Below the pieces are notes generated by a model. The model was not told the origin of the DNA and searched no databases. It saw only the letters and a program-made list of their open reading frames with translations. This document shows, piece after piece, positions 29,561 to 37,162 of a DNA stretch of 64,000 nucleotides (position 1 is its first letter; every line of letters starts with the position of its first letter). The position numbers were made by a program, and so were the translations under genes. This stretch comes from an uncultured Bacteroidales bacterium (lineage in GTDB: Bacteria; Bacteroidota; Bacteroidia; Bacteroidales; UBA932), in NCBI GenBank assembly GCA_946410455.1, contig CAMKAJ010000006.1, forward strand, positions 1 through 64,000. The letters run 5' to 3'.

Positions 29561-29654
29561 GACTGCGCGTAAGGGTACATCCGGGTGTACCCCTGCGCGC
29601 GATAATGGCCGAAAATGAACGCAGGGGTACAAACAAATGTACCCCTGCGCGCAC
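29561..29654 (+). repeat. REP-like double-hairpin repeat, copy 3
   Basis: Same orientation and order as copy 2. Hairpin A core GGGTAC/GTACCC, spacer GGCCGAAAATGAAC, hairpin B GCAGGGGTAC/GTACCCCTGC. Relative to copy 2 the A-T pairs in hairpin B have become G-C pairs on both sides. It sits between convergent tex and infB. Confidence 0.9.
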
Positions 29655-29670
29655 TACTATCTAGAAGCCG

Positions 29671-32487
29671 TTACAGCGTCCTCTTGATTTCTACCACCTG
29701 GAAGGCTTCGATGACATCGCCTTCCTTGATGTCGTTGTAGCCGGCGACGCTCATACCGCACTCCTTGCCGGCAACGACTTCCTTGACGGAGTCTTTACCA
29801 ATCTGCAGGGAGCCGAGCTCTCCGGTATAGATTACGATACCGTCGCGGATAAGGCGGACCTTGGACTTCTGCACCATCTTGCCGTCGCGGACAATACATC
29901 CGGCGATGGTTCCGACCTTGGAAATCCTGAATGTCTGCTTAATCTCGGCGGTGGCGATAACCTCTTCTTTCTTCTCAGGTTCGAGCATACCCTCGATACC
30001 GTCCTTGACTTCGTTGATACAGTCGTAGATGACGGAATAGAGGCGGATCTCTATGCCCTCGCGGTCGGCGCTCTTGCGGGCCTCTACCGAAGGACGCACC
30101 TGGAAGCCGATGATAACGGCATCCGAAGCCTCTGCGAGCAGAACGTCAGACTCGGAAATGGCACCCACAGCTTTGTGGATCACATTCACTCGTATCTCCT
30201 CGGTGCTGAGCTTGATGAGAGAGTCTGACAGAGCTTCCACAGAGCCGTCCACATCACCTTTCACAATGACGTTGAGCTCCTTGAAGTTGCCGATAGCGAT
30301 ACGGCGGCCAATCTCTTCGAGAGTCATGTGCTTCTGGGTCTTGATGCCCTGGATGCGGATGAGCTGCTCGCGCTTGGCGGCGATGCTCTTGGCTTCCTTC
30401 TCGTCTGTGAGTACGTTGAACTTCTCACCGGCAGCAGGAGCGCCATTAAGGCCGAGCACAGATACCGGCGTAGAAGGGCCTGCCTCCTGCACCTTTTGCC
30501 CGCGCTCATTGAACATACCCCTCACACGGCCATAATAGCTTCCGCAGAGCATTATGTCGCCCTGATGCAGGGTACCTTCCTGAACCAGTACGGTAGCAAG
30601 ATATCCACGTCCCTTGTCAAGAGAGGACTCTATCACGGCTCCGGCTGCCAGTTTGTCGGGATTGGCCTTGAGTTCCAGCAAATCGGTCTCAAGGAGCACC
30701 TTGTCGAGGAGCTTGTCTACATTGATTCCCTTCTTGGCGGAAATCTCCTGGCACTGATATTTGCCACCCCAGTCTTCTACGAGGATATTCATCTCTGAGA
30801 GCTGACGGCGAATCTTCTCGGCATCTGCGCCCGGCTTGTCTATCTTGTTGATAGCGAATACCATGGGGACGTTGGCGGCCTGAGCGTGATTGATTGCCTC
30901 AATGGTCTGGGGCATCACGGCGTCGTCGGCTGCAATAATGATGATTGCGAGGTCGGTCATCTGGGCACCACGAGCACGCATAGCGGTAAAGGCCTCGTGT
31001 CCAGGGGTATCCAGGAAGGTGATCTTGCGACCGTCCTCCAGCTTGACACTGTAAGCGCCGATGTGCTGGGTAATACCGCCGGCCTCACCTGCAATCACGT
31101 TGGTCTTGCGAATATAGTCGAGCAGCGAGGTCTTACCATGGTCTACGTGACCCATGACGGTGATAATAGGCTCGCGGGGCTTGAGGTCCTCGGGACGGTC
31201 GGGCTGACCGGCAGAGTTGAGCTCCTCAGAGAGCTCGGCGGTCACGAACTCCACCTTGTACCCGAATTCCTCGGCCACCAGCACGAGTGTCTCTGCATCG
31301 AGGCGCTGGTTTATGGACACCATCAGACCAAGGCTCATGCAAGCACCGATAACCTTCACCACGGGGGTGTTGTTCATAAGGGTAGCAAGGTCGTTGACCG
31401 TAACGAACTCGGTGACTTTGAGCACCTTCTGCTCGGCCATAGCTTCGGCCATCTCTTCCTGCGTGCGCTGGGCTGCAGCCTCACGCTTCTCCTTACGGTA
31501 CTTTGCTCCAAAGTTGTTCTTCTTGCCCTCGTTCATGCGGGCGTAAGTCTCCTTAACCTGCTTTTGGATCTCTTTCTGCATCTCCTCCTGCTCGGCCTCG
31601 GTCATAGCTGGCTTGAAGCGGTCGCGACTGCGACGGCCCTTGCCGGGAGCAGGCTGTGCGGGAGCGTTTTTGGGCTTGTCTTTCTTACCGGCGTTGCGGT
31701 CGATATTGGCACCTGCCTTTACCACATCCACCTTCTGCGCGCCCTTGCCTATACGTTCGCGCTTTACAGGCTTACGGTCGAACTGGCTCAGGTCCACTTT
31801 GCCCACAACCTTGAACGGAGAGGCCTCGGGTGCAGCAGGTGCAGGAGCAACAGGAGTTGCGGGCTGCTCAGGCTCCGTGGCCGGTGCCTCAGGAGCTACA
31901 GGGGCTGCAGGAGCTTCCTGCACAGGCTGTTCTACTGGTGCGGCGGGCTCTGCGGCGGGCTCTTCTGCCACAGGCTGCTCCTCTACTTTCTCTACTGCAG
32001 GAGCTTCTTCCACTATGGGAGCGGGCTCAGGTTCCGGTTCGGGAATCGGCTCAGGCTTAGGCTCAGGTTCTGGAGCAGGAGCAGGAGCAGGAGCAGGCGC
32101 AGGAGCCGGGACGGGCTCTTCTTCTACCGGAGCAGGTGCGGGTGCTGGCTCTTCGGCCTTGGGGGCCTCTGGAGCGGCCTTGCGGGCCTTGAAGAAAGTC
32201 GTCGACTTGATGGTCAGTTCCTCTTCTTCCTCCTCTTCTTCCTGCTTGGTGAGCTTTCGGTTGGTCTTTTCCAGAATCTCCTTAACCTTGATATCCGCCA
32301 GGGCGGCCTGTTCCATGGCCTCCTTGTCTTTGCCGAACTGCTTGTTGAGCTCTGGCAGGTACTCGTCGGAGACCTTGGCATTGGGGTTCTCATCGATCTC
32401 TACGCCCTTCTTGCGGAGGAAGTCCACAATGTCGCTGAGTCCGATGTTGAACTGCTTGATAAGTTTGCTTATTCTGATTTCTGCCAT
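29671..32487 (-). CDS. infB: Translation initiation factor IF-2
   Basis: GTPase delivering initiator tRNA to the 30S subunit, 938 aa. IF2_N-type start '[20 protein letters not shown]', a long disordered linker of Pro-Ala-Glu repeats (residues about 95-235), then the G domain '[20 protein letters not shown]', '[18 protein letters not shown]' and '[14 protein letters not shown]', and domains II-IV. Start chosen at ATG 32487, 7 nt after the nusA stop, because [10 protein letters not shown] matches the family; ATG 32505 would overlap nusA. Third gene of rimP-nusA-infB. Confidence 0.97.
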
Positions 32488-32494
32488 AGGCTTA

Positions 32495-33760
32495 TTAGTC
32501 TTCAAATTCGGCTTTAAGGATACGGATTACATCTTCTACGGTCTCGTCGTCAAGGTCTGCTCGCTTGGCGATGTCTTCGGGCTCGATTGCGAGTACGCTC
32601 TTGGCGGTGTCGCAGCCAATGCCCTTGAGCTTGTCGATGACCCACTGGTCGATCTCGTTGGAGAAGTCGTCGAGCAGCACGTCGTCTTCCTCTTCTGCCT
32701 CAGCAGTAGAGAGTTCCCTCCAGACCTCAATTTCGCGGCCGATGAGCTTGCCGGCCAGCAGCACGTTCACACCGTTGCGGCCGATACCCTTCTTGACCTC
32801 GTCGGGAAGCATGTAAACCTTCACCTTGTCGTCGGGGCTCTGGCCCATATCTATGCTGGAAACCATACCGGGAGCAAGGGCCCTCTGGATAAGCAGGTTG
32901 GGGTTGTTGGACCAAGGGATGACGTCGATATTCTCGTTGCGAAGCTCGCGCACGATTCCTAGGATCCTGCTGCCCTTCACGCCGATACATGCTCCGATAG
33001 GATCTACGCGGTCGTCGTAAGACTCCACGGCCACTTTGGAACGGTCGCCGGGCACGCGAACCACCTTCTTGACGGTGATGAGGCCGTCGGCGATCTCGGG
33101 AACTTCCTGCTCGAAGAGGCGCTCCAGGAACTCGTCGCTGGTACGACTCAGGGTAATGTAAGGAGTGGTATTGTTACGCATCTCCACGCTCTTGATGATG
33201 GCGCGTACCGACTCGCTCTTCTTGAAGTGCTCGCCGGGAATCTGCTCGGTCTTGGGGATGTGGAGTTCGTTGCCGTCCTCGTCGAGAATGAGAACCTCTT
33301 TGCTCCAGGTCTGATAGACTTCGCCCACGAAGAGCTCGCCCACCTTCTCGGAGTATTTCTTGTATACATTGGCCTTCTCTATATCCATGATGCGGCCCTG
33401 CAGGTTCTGACGAATGTTCAGGATGCCACGGCGGCCGAAGGATGACAGGGGGAAGGGCTTGGCGTAGGTGTCGCCGATTTCGTAATCGTCGTCGCCGCTG
33501 TCTGCCGCAACCTGCTCCAGAGTCATTTCTGCGTAGGGATTCTCTACTTCCTCCACAATCTCAAAGTTCTGGTATATTTCGCAGGTTCCTTTATCGACGT
33601 TAACGATGACGTCGAAGTTGTCGGAGCTACCGAAGGTCTTGGCAATCTGGGTAAGGAACACGTCCTTGAGTACGCCCATCATTACAGGGCGGTCGATGTT
33701 TTTCTCCTCTTTGAAGTCCTTGAAGGCGTCAATGAGGGTGATTACTTTTTCTTTTTCCAT
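32495..33760 (-). CDS. nusA: Transcription termination/antitermination factor NusA
   Basis: RNA polymerase-binding elongation factor, 421 aa. N-terminal domain to about residue 130, S1 domain ('[25 protein letters not shown]'), KH domains around '[27 protein letters not shown]' (read as [11 protein letters not shown]), and a C-terminal helix-hairpin-helix-like end '[21 protein letters not shown]'. The start forms TAATG with the rimP stop. NusA commonly regulates its own operon through leader terminators, which fits the hairpin at 34041-34069. Confidence 0.96.
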
Positions 33761-34032
33761 TATTCGTTTATAGTTTTCAATATTTCTTCTGCTTCTTCGG
33801 GGCTCAGGCCGGCGGAGCCAACGGTGAGTGCGTAGTCTTCTACGTCGCGGTCGAATGCGGCAAGTACTGCGCGGTGTACGTATTCGCAGTCTTCCAGGTC
33901 TACGAGACCGTCGACCTTGTCCAGGGTAAGCTCGAATACATTGTCGTCATCGTTAAAATCTATGGCTACTACTTCGCAGGAGCGCTCTGCAGCGGCCCTC
34001 AGCACTACTTCTTCAAAATCTTTTCGTTGCAT
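33760..34032 (-). CDS. rimP: Ribosome maturation factor RimP, N-terminal domain only
   Basis: 30S assembly factor. Only 90 aa, against about 150 in relatives. The N-terminal alpha/beta domain is complete to the conserved 'YALTVGSAGLS'; then, where the C-terminal SH3-like domain should follow, there is only a short acidic helix 'PEEAEEILKTINE' and the stop, which overlaps the nusA ATG (TAATG). The missing domain is not present in another frame because nusA begins there. The position before nusA-infB supports the identification. Whether it is still functional is unknown. Confidence 0.85.
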   Translation of the reverse strand: MQRKDFEEVVLRAAAERSCEVVAIDFNDDDNVFELTLDKVDGLVDLEDCEYVHRAVLAAFDRDVEDYALTVGSAGLSPEEAEEILKTINE

Positions 34033-34040
34033 ATCCGGTA

Positions 34041-34069
34041 TAAAAAAATAGAAGCCGTCCGGCCTCTAT
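34041..34069 (-). terminator. Attenuator-like terminator in the rimP-nusA-infB leader
   Basis: On the minus strand ATAGAGGCC pairs with GGCTTCTAT across GGAC (9 bp, one G-U), followed at once by seven T's. It lies after the predicted rimP promoter and before the rimP ATG. No other minus-strand gene is upstream (pnuC is divergent), so it can only act on the operon's own transcript. Confidence 0.7.
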
Positions 34070-34083
34070 CATCAACACTGGCG

Positions 34084-34091
34084 CAAAGATA
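34084..34091 (-). promoter_or_regulatory. Predicted -7 element for rimP-nusA-infB
   Basis: Minus-strand TATCTTTG, giving a leader of about 45 nt that contains the hairpin with U-tract. Confidence 0.6.
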
Positions 34092-34121
34092 GTAATTATT
34101 TATACAATTAGCAAATCTTGC

Positions 34122-34129
34122 TATATTTG
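34122..34129 (+). promoter_or_regulatory. Predicted -7 element for pnuC
   Basis: TATATTTG, ATG 4 nt later (CAAT between); likely leaderless. Confidence 0.6.
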
Positions 34130-34133
34130 CAAT

Positions 34134-34874
34134 ATGAACGAGAAGAAACTGAATACGGCGGTATCGCTGTTCGTGCTGGTGGGCATGACCGTGGCCACTG
34201 CGCTGGTTACGGCGCTGAAGTACGGACCGGCCGATCCGCAAGCCAGAATACTGCTGCTGATATCCGCATTCGGCGCCCTGATGGGCGTAGCCTCCACGGT
34301 ATCATCAGCCAACGGCTACATCGTGACCTTCCTCTTCGGTCTGCTGGACGTATCCATCTACGGAGCCCTGTGCCTTGTAAACTGGAAAAACGGCAGCTCC
34401 GGCCTGGGCAACGCAGTACTCCACTTTCTCTACTTCGTCCCCATGCAGTTCATAGGCTTCGCGCAATGGCGCCGGCAGGGCCACAACAAAGAAGGCAGCG
34501 TAAAAGCCCGCCGCCTCACAGCAAAACAACGCTGGCTCGCCACGGCAGTCTTTCTTGCCAGCTCGGTAATAGCGTACCTGATAATCGCCCGCTTCGACCG
34601 TTCCGCCGCCACCAGCTTCATCAAAGTAGCAGTAGTTCTCGACGTACTCCCCCTCGTTTGCAACCTCCTGGGCCAGATGCTGATGAGCACCGCCTACATG
34701 GAGCAATGGGTGTTCTGGATAGGAGTAAATATCTTCTCCATAATCATGTGGAGCGTAACGTTGCACAACAATCCCGGTTCCAGTTACGCACTGGTGTACG
34801 TAGTCAAGTACTCCTTCTACCTTCTCAACGCCTTCAACGGCCTGCGCAACTGGATGAGGCTGAGCCGCCCTTAA
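34134..34874 (+). CDS. pnuC: PnuC-like nicotinamide riboside/vitamin transporter
   Basis: Inner-membrane protein of 246 aa with about seven hydrophobic segments. Family features include 'VASTVSSANGYIVTFLFGLLDVSIYG', 'FVPMQFIGFAQWRR', and the C-terminal 'QWVFWIGVNIFSIIMWSV' with 'YVVKYSFYLLNAFNGLRNW'. PnuC proteins facilitate uptake of nicotinamide riboside, with trapping by a kinase not seen here; relatives carry thiamine or riboflavin, so the substrate is not fixed. The 3' end overlaps the convergent wbqC-like gene by 41 bp. Confidence 0.85.
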   Translation: MNEKKLNTAVSLFVLVGMTVATALVTALKYGPADPQARILLLISAFGALMGVASTVSSANGYIVTFLFGLLDVSIYGALCLVNWKNGSSGLGNAVLHFLYFVPMQFIGFAQWRRQGHNKEGSVKARRLTAKQRWLATAVFLASSVIAYLIIARFDRSAATSFIKVAVVLDVLPLVCNLLGQMLMSTAYMEQWVFWIGVNIFSIIMWSVTLHNNPGSSYALVYVVKYSFYLLNAFNGLRNWMRLSRP

Positions 34875-36262: not shown

Positions 36263-37162
36263 TTAAATGTTTTTCAGTATATCGCGGGCAGCCGCAGTAT
36301 TGAGTGCGTGCCCAGGTTTGTAGGCCTCTACGCGCAGGCAGGGCATGCCGCCGCACAGACGGAGGTCTCCAATAAGATCCAATAGCTTGTGACGCCCGCA
36401 TTCGTCGGCAAAGCGCAAGCCGCCCTCGGCAAGAAAGCCCTTTTGACTGACCTGGGGCGCCTGCTTACCCAGTAAACGGGCCACGAATCGCAGGGCAAAC
36501 TTAGATACCGGCTTCTCTACCACCAGGATAGCGTTATCCAGATCGCCTCCCTTAATTAGACCAAGAGCAAGCTGAGGTAAGATTTCGTGCAGAAAGCAGA
36601 AAGTACGGCACGAAGCTATCTGGCTGCTGTAGGACACGTCTTTTGTATAGCTAACTTTCTGCACTCCAATTACATCGGAGCCAAAATCTATAGTCAGCTC
36701 TATCGAGGGTTCCTGAGCAGGGCTAATCTTGATCCAGGAGCCGGACTTCTCGTTGCGCACTTCTATCTCCTTAGAAATAGTAACCCATTTGCGTGCCGCT
36801 CCCTGGTCCAGAGTGCCGTCGCGAAGAACAGCCTCTACATAAAGCCGCGCACTGCCATCCAGAATTGGCACCTCCGGGCCGTCCAGTTCTACAAGAGCAT
36901 TGTCGACACCCAGACCTGTGAGGGCAGAGAGCACATGCTCTACCGTACCCACCTTTGCTGCGCCTGCTCCAAGCTGCGTACTGCGGCGGGTAGAACTCAC
37001 GTTAGATGCAATTGCGGGGATTCTGGCGCCGCCAAGATCGGTGCGCACAAATACAATACCTGTGTCAACAGGTGCAGGGCACAGGCGCAGATTAACTACC
37101 TTACCGGTGTGCAGCCCCTTTCCGTTGAACGAATATGTCTGTTTAAGAGTATGCTGGTTCAT
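36263..37162 (-). CDS. lpxC: UDP-3-O-acyl-N-acetylglucosamine deacetylase, stand-alone
   Basis: Zinc amidase of lipid A synthesis, 299 aa. N-terminal 'TYSFNGKGLHTGKVVNLRL', 'VGTVEHVLSALTGLGVDNALVEL' (zinc His), 'ILDGSARLY', and C-terminal 'FADECGRHKLLDLIGDL' with the zinc His-x3-Asp. In many Bacteroidales this protein is fused to FabZ; here it ends right after the deacetylase domain (DILKNI) and lpxA starts 2 nt later, so there is no FabZ. Start ATG 37162: the ORF's first codon is a TTG inside the promoter. Confidence 0.96.
   Translation of the reverse strand: MNQHTLKQTYSFNGKGLHTGKVVNLRLCPAPVDTGIVFVRTDLGGARIPAIASNVSSTRRSTQLGAGAAKVGTVEHVLSALTGLGVDNALVELDGPEVPILDGSARLYVEAVLRDGTLDQGAARKWVTISKEIEVRNEKSGSWIKISPAQEPSIELTIDFGSDVIGVQKVSYTKDVSYSSQIASCRTFCFLHEILPQLALGLIKGGDLDNAILVVEKPVSKFALRFVARLLGKQAPQVSQKGFLAEGGLRFADECGRHKLLDLIGDLRLCGGMPCLRVEAYKPGHALNTAAARDILKNI

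Follow-up and report, generated by a model that had tools for sequence, protein, structure and literature searches.

The most common predicted attenuator is the rimP-leader (Naville and Gautheret 2010, PMC2965389; Rfam RF01770), a terminator with a GGGc...gCCC stem and no antiterminator, for which feedback by NusA has been hypothesised (PMC2965389). The E. coli metY-rimP-nusA-infB operon is repressed by NusA (PMC2965389), and its sequence has a terminator, CTGGGCTTTAGGCCCTTTTTTT, just before rimP. NusA-stimulated termination in the leader of the B. subtilis nusA operon is autoregulatory (Mondal 2016, as cited in PMC12288461). The idea of NusA feedback at such leaders is not new, having been put forward for other phyla (PMC2965389, PMC12288461); the main text of PMC2965389 does not name the Bacteroidetes, and the supplementary lists there might already hold members. 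Here we describe the leader of rimP-nusA-infB in a 64,000-nucleotide stretch of Bacteroidales DNA (the window) and in related genomes. Judged by its sequence, it is a Bacteroidota variant of the known rimP/nusA leader attenuator and not a new kind.

Read 5' to 3', the window's minus strand has, in order, TTTG, 20 nt, TATCTTTG, 13 nt, a hairpin, a run of seven Ts and the rimP ATG (34032-34030; Table 1). The hairpin has 10 pairs, two of them G-U, and a 4-nt loop, and the short leader RNA has a minimum free energy of -13.5 kcal/mol (z = -3.5 relative to shuffles). A preliminary description of this locus had placed a promoter motif and a terminator hairpin with seven U's before rimP, and the coordinates, the fold and the conservation all agree with it. 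It was also right that no other promoter-like motif lies 5' of the operon on this strand: TATCTTTG is the sole minus-strand TAnnTTTG between rimP and position 36496. Promoters of this -33/-7 type are known in B. thetaiotaomicron (PMC7366714). A plain scan for terminators in the region gives five where 6.3 are expected, no excess over chance. The ordered pair of promoter and terminator does exceed chance: over both strands the window has 48 TAnnTTTG boxes, and a terminator follows only that of the nusA-operon leader.

Table 1. Elements and genes of the nusA operon and its leader in the window.
Feature	Position	Strand	Basis
-33 element TTTG of the rimP-nusA-infB promoter	34112..34115	-	sequence; TTTG peak 19-20 nt 5' of TAnnTTTG across loci
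-7 element TATCTTTG	34084..34091	-	sequence
Initial transcribed stretch	34071..34083	-	start site inferred near 34081-34077 from the -7 definition
Predicted terminator hairpin GATAGAGGCC-GGAC-GGCTTCTATT	34047..34070	-	folding; conservation and covariation
Seven-T U-tract, two outer T's shared with the stem	34042..34048	-	sequence; unbiased U-tract test
rimP, first gene, N-terminal domain only (90 aa)	33760..34032	-	Pfam
nusA	32495..33760	-	Pfam
infB (IF2)	29671..32505	-	Pfam

The leaders of the class Bacteroidia share with the rimP-leader a short terminator with a G-rich 5' arm, a C-rich 3' arm and a U-tract, located before rimP-nusA-infB, and like its general form they have no antiterminator. 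They differ from it in their stem (consensus GGGGAC/GUCCCC; GAGGCC/GGCUUC in the window copy), in their closeness to a TTTG/TAnnTTTG promoter (a distance of about 10-30 nt), and in persisting without rimP. The window copy is itself located in the 5' leader of rimP-nusA-infB and has a hairpin and U-tract with no antiterminator, but its stem (GAGGCC/GGCTTC) has no GGG or CCC and lacks the GGGc...gCCC core, and we therefore file it as a variant and not as a plain member of the rimP-leader family. It is placed in the series because its orthologous position can be followed through relatives that have both the G-run and the C-run. A search of all Rfam families, RF01770 included, gives no above-threshold match to the window leader; RF01770 is above its gathering cut-off in none of 41 genomes of the order and in one of 14 control genomes.

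As described in the citing account, the B. subtilis nusA leader resembles the present one in that an intrinsic terminator in the 5' leader limits entry into the nusA operon. That leader is about 180 nt long (PMC2965389), compared with about 46 nt in the window, where NusA dependence is putative; the very early position of the terminator here is unusual by comparison. The E. coli leader is similar in having a terminator directly before rimP in an operon under NusA repression, but there tandem terminators follow a tRNA gene, whereas here a single one stands right after the promoter.

We sampled nusA loci from the genus (Cryptobacteroides), family, order, class and phylum. A first detector, which looked for TAnnTTTG, then a stem, then a U-rich tail, finds the leader in 239 of 312 loci, whereas the controls give 2 in 936 (dinucleotide shuffles) and 1 in 312 (antisense strands); the preliminary description had named conservation of the hairpin and U-tract in the leaders of relatives as a check, and the result upholds it. 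A later detector used a slightly wider search, with order loci limited to the 86 that are long enough. By this measure promoter and terminator are present in 131 of 134 genus loci, 19 of 25 family loci (three more have a terminator but no box that was recognised), 65 of 86 order loci (six more have a variant box, some of them doubtful, and seven a terminator only) and all 23 other loci of the class. Outside the class there are 12 leaders in 43 loci and a further 13 variants, some doubtful.

Across loci, the position of TTTG peaks 19-20 nt 5' of the -7 box, and the class-wide stem consensus is AGGGGAC-loop-GUCCCCU followed by a U-tract. The sequence of the stem is kept beyond what pairing requires: GGGGAC...GUCCCC occurs in 40 of 63 order leaders and 11 of 22 class leaders, and GGGG..CCCC runs in 55 and 15 of these, respectively, while the exact GGGC/GCCC type is found in few. 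The stem of the window's clade has diverged to the GAGGCC/GGCUUC form. In an alignment built without reference to structure, two-sided changes are seen at all nine pairs, with 67 two-sided-change cells (25 in shuffles) and a covariation score of 0.371 (0.200 when shuffled, at most 0.177 when slid). Just 3' of the promoter, GTGA is present in 107 of 128 genus leaders, compared with 5 of 218 other TAnnTTTG boxes; the window copy reads GTGT.

For an unbiased measure of the U-tract, stems were picked ignoring T and the ten bases after the last G or C of the 3' arm were counted. The mean T content of these bases is 7.4 out of 10 in the genus and 6.5-6.8 in the order and class; slightly further downstream it is 2.2 in the genus and 2.2-3.5 over the groups. 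Loops range from 3 to 8 nt, G-U pairs occur, and a median of 9 nt of RNA separates the inferred start from the stem. Complementarity of the pre-stem RNA to the 5' arm is found in 15 of 215 leaders and equally in 15 when shuffled, and the leaders therefore contain no classical antiterminator. The retrieved loci contain 25 other canonical promoters, and such a terminator follows none of them. A covariance model of the leader has exactly one match in the window's genome (E <= 0.1). Over 99 genomes of the order, the nusA leader is the best hit in 39 of 69 genomes and present, though not best, in 16, in each case among the matches listed. The model is not exclusive to the leader: similar GGGGAC hairpins elsewhere in some genomes are ordinary terminators, and the other matches are often on both strands, as ordinary terminators are. 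We infer from these data that the leader terminator stops transcription in vivo; the predicted early stopping of polymerase is well supported by the sequence.

RimP is missing before nusA in 9 of 312 loci. The RimP_N domain is absent genome-wide from six genomes belonging to two genera of the family, and all eight comparison genomes have it; two further genomes, G201 and G175, have no RimP above the cut-off. In these eight genomes the promoter and hairpin lie directly before nusA. In the NusA tree the two RimP-less genera branch basally in the family, with G201 elsewhere in the order; the G175 row is too short for the tree, and that genome belongs to another family. These positions therefore indicate at least three separate losses of RimP. 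A reduced genome, G209, is without both rimP and the leader. (The full set of genomes apparently without RimP is G078, G097, G115, G082, G101, G118, G201, G175 and G209; their loci are L065, L066, L069, L060, L063, L059, L177, L153 and L196.)

One Cryptobacteroides locus (L293, from a single metagenome-assembled genome) has rimP relocated behind an M23/LysM peptidase gene beside wbqC, and its nusA retains the leader; neither a TAnnTTTG box, over 2.2 kb, nor a hairpin accompanies the relocated rimP. L293 and L326 (G315:C70) are the loci of this relocation. Of 128 genus operons, 41 encode a RimP without the C-domain, all with the leader retained. Since the leader is kept without rimP or its C-domain, and does not follow rimP when this moves, RimP is not the reason for the element, and these data support a leader that would belong to nusA and not to rimP. 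Wherever a locus extends far enough downstream, nusA is followed by infB (L123 appeared to be an exception, rejected on finding a diverged infB), so that linkage to nusA and linkage to infB are inseparable. In the window's clade, RimP consists of the N-terminal domain only, at 90 aa, with no SH3 C-domain. A short rimP spacing occurs also in 7 of 15 family leaders.

On balance we favour reading the leader as a transcription attenuator of the nusA operon, with NusA as its most likely effector through negative feedback. RNA polymerase would start at the TTTG/TATCTTTG promoter and reach the intrinsic terminator after about 35-40 nt. Some polymerases would stop there and release a short RNA, the rest would continue into (rimP-)nusA-infB, and NusA would raise the share that stop, giving negative feedback on the operon. 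Because there is neither room nor complement for an antiterminator, a protein acting on the elongation complex or the hairpin most likely sets the stopping fraction, and this would most likely be NusA itself. The preliminary description had suggested NusA attenuation, and its parts fare differently. For attenuation by a leader terminator, strong support comes from conservation, covariation, the U-tract and the lack of such terminators at other promoters; the assignment to nusA and not to rimP gains support from the lineages without rimP and from one relocation; the role of the NusA protein as effector would follow from precedent and from the linkage to nusA.

With its end only about 40 nt downstream of the start, the terminator may precede the point at which NusA normally replaces sigma in E. 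coli, and NusA may not be bound in time to act on it. A more specific version of the model, in which NusA acts on this start-proximal terminator (~40 nt) at the passage from initiation to elongation and specifically recognises the stem, as a nusA element independent of rimP, is speculative taken as a whole.

A genuine leader terminator that stops a fixed fraction, or answers to another factor (NusG, growth-rate effects, a ribosome-assembly factor or IF2) and not to NusA, is a less likely but serious alternative. All of the structural evidence fits it equally well, the constant presence of infB downstream of nusA would suit another factor, and in B. subtilis NusG is a further driver of intrinsic termination (PMC8060035). 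However, NusA feedback on the operon is shown or supported in both E. coli and B. subtilis, and a terminator of fixed strength alone would leave the conservation of the stem sequence unexplained. That the inverted repeat instead serves a repressor as its DNA operator, or stabilises the mRNA at its 5' end, with no termination involved, is improbable: a short inverted repeat just 3' of the start site could do either, but loops of 3 to 8 nt, the use of G-U pairs and the strong one-sided U-tract are at odds with both, and the variable loops and G-U pairs lead us to reject the operator. Still lower is the probability that the hairpin marks the 3' end of an operon lying upstream, or is a mere insulator from upstream transcription. 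The nearest long upstream ORF is on the same strand in 59 of 184 classified loci, but it is divergent in 125, the window included, so that the hairpin is not simply the end of an upstream operon, and the hairpin sits 3' of the operon's own promoter; the divergent neighbours largely refute the idea of an upstream-operon terminator. Control by RimP binding to the leader, attractive in that rimP is the first gene and RimP is named as an option in PMC2965389, is barely credible given that the leader persists without detectable RimP and stays behind when rimP moves, and as a general mechanism it is refuted by the RimP-less genomes and L293.

As an attenuator of the nusA operon, the leader would extend the rimP/nusA type to a phylum for which the literature searched contains no description. 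Natural gene loss and relocation suggest that the element travels with nusA and not with rimP, and the leader is very short and testable in genetically tractable Bacteroides relatives.

The gene at 34134, divergent from the nusA operon, is a nicotinamide mononucleotide transporter of the pnuC type. The sequence TATATTTG (34122-34134, plus strand) ends only 4 nt 5' of the pnuC ATG, which suggests a nearly leaderless pnuC transcript that runs away from the nusA operon and overlaps its promoter. Past pnuC, upstream of the leader, lies wbqC (35451-34837, minus strand), from which read-through into the nusA operon, antisense to pnuC, is possible; the preliminary description had stated that no other minus-strand transcript reaches the leader, and such read-through would contradict it. 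Six loci (L009, L030, L032, L035, L036 and L045) carry insertions of palindromic repeat elements 3' of the terminator and 5' of the rimP ATG, and a tandem pair of similar palindromes (GCGCAGGGGTACA...TGTACCC) is found directly 3' of infB in the window, at about 29570-29650 on the minus strand.
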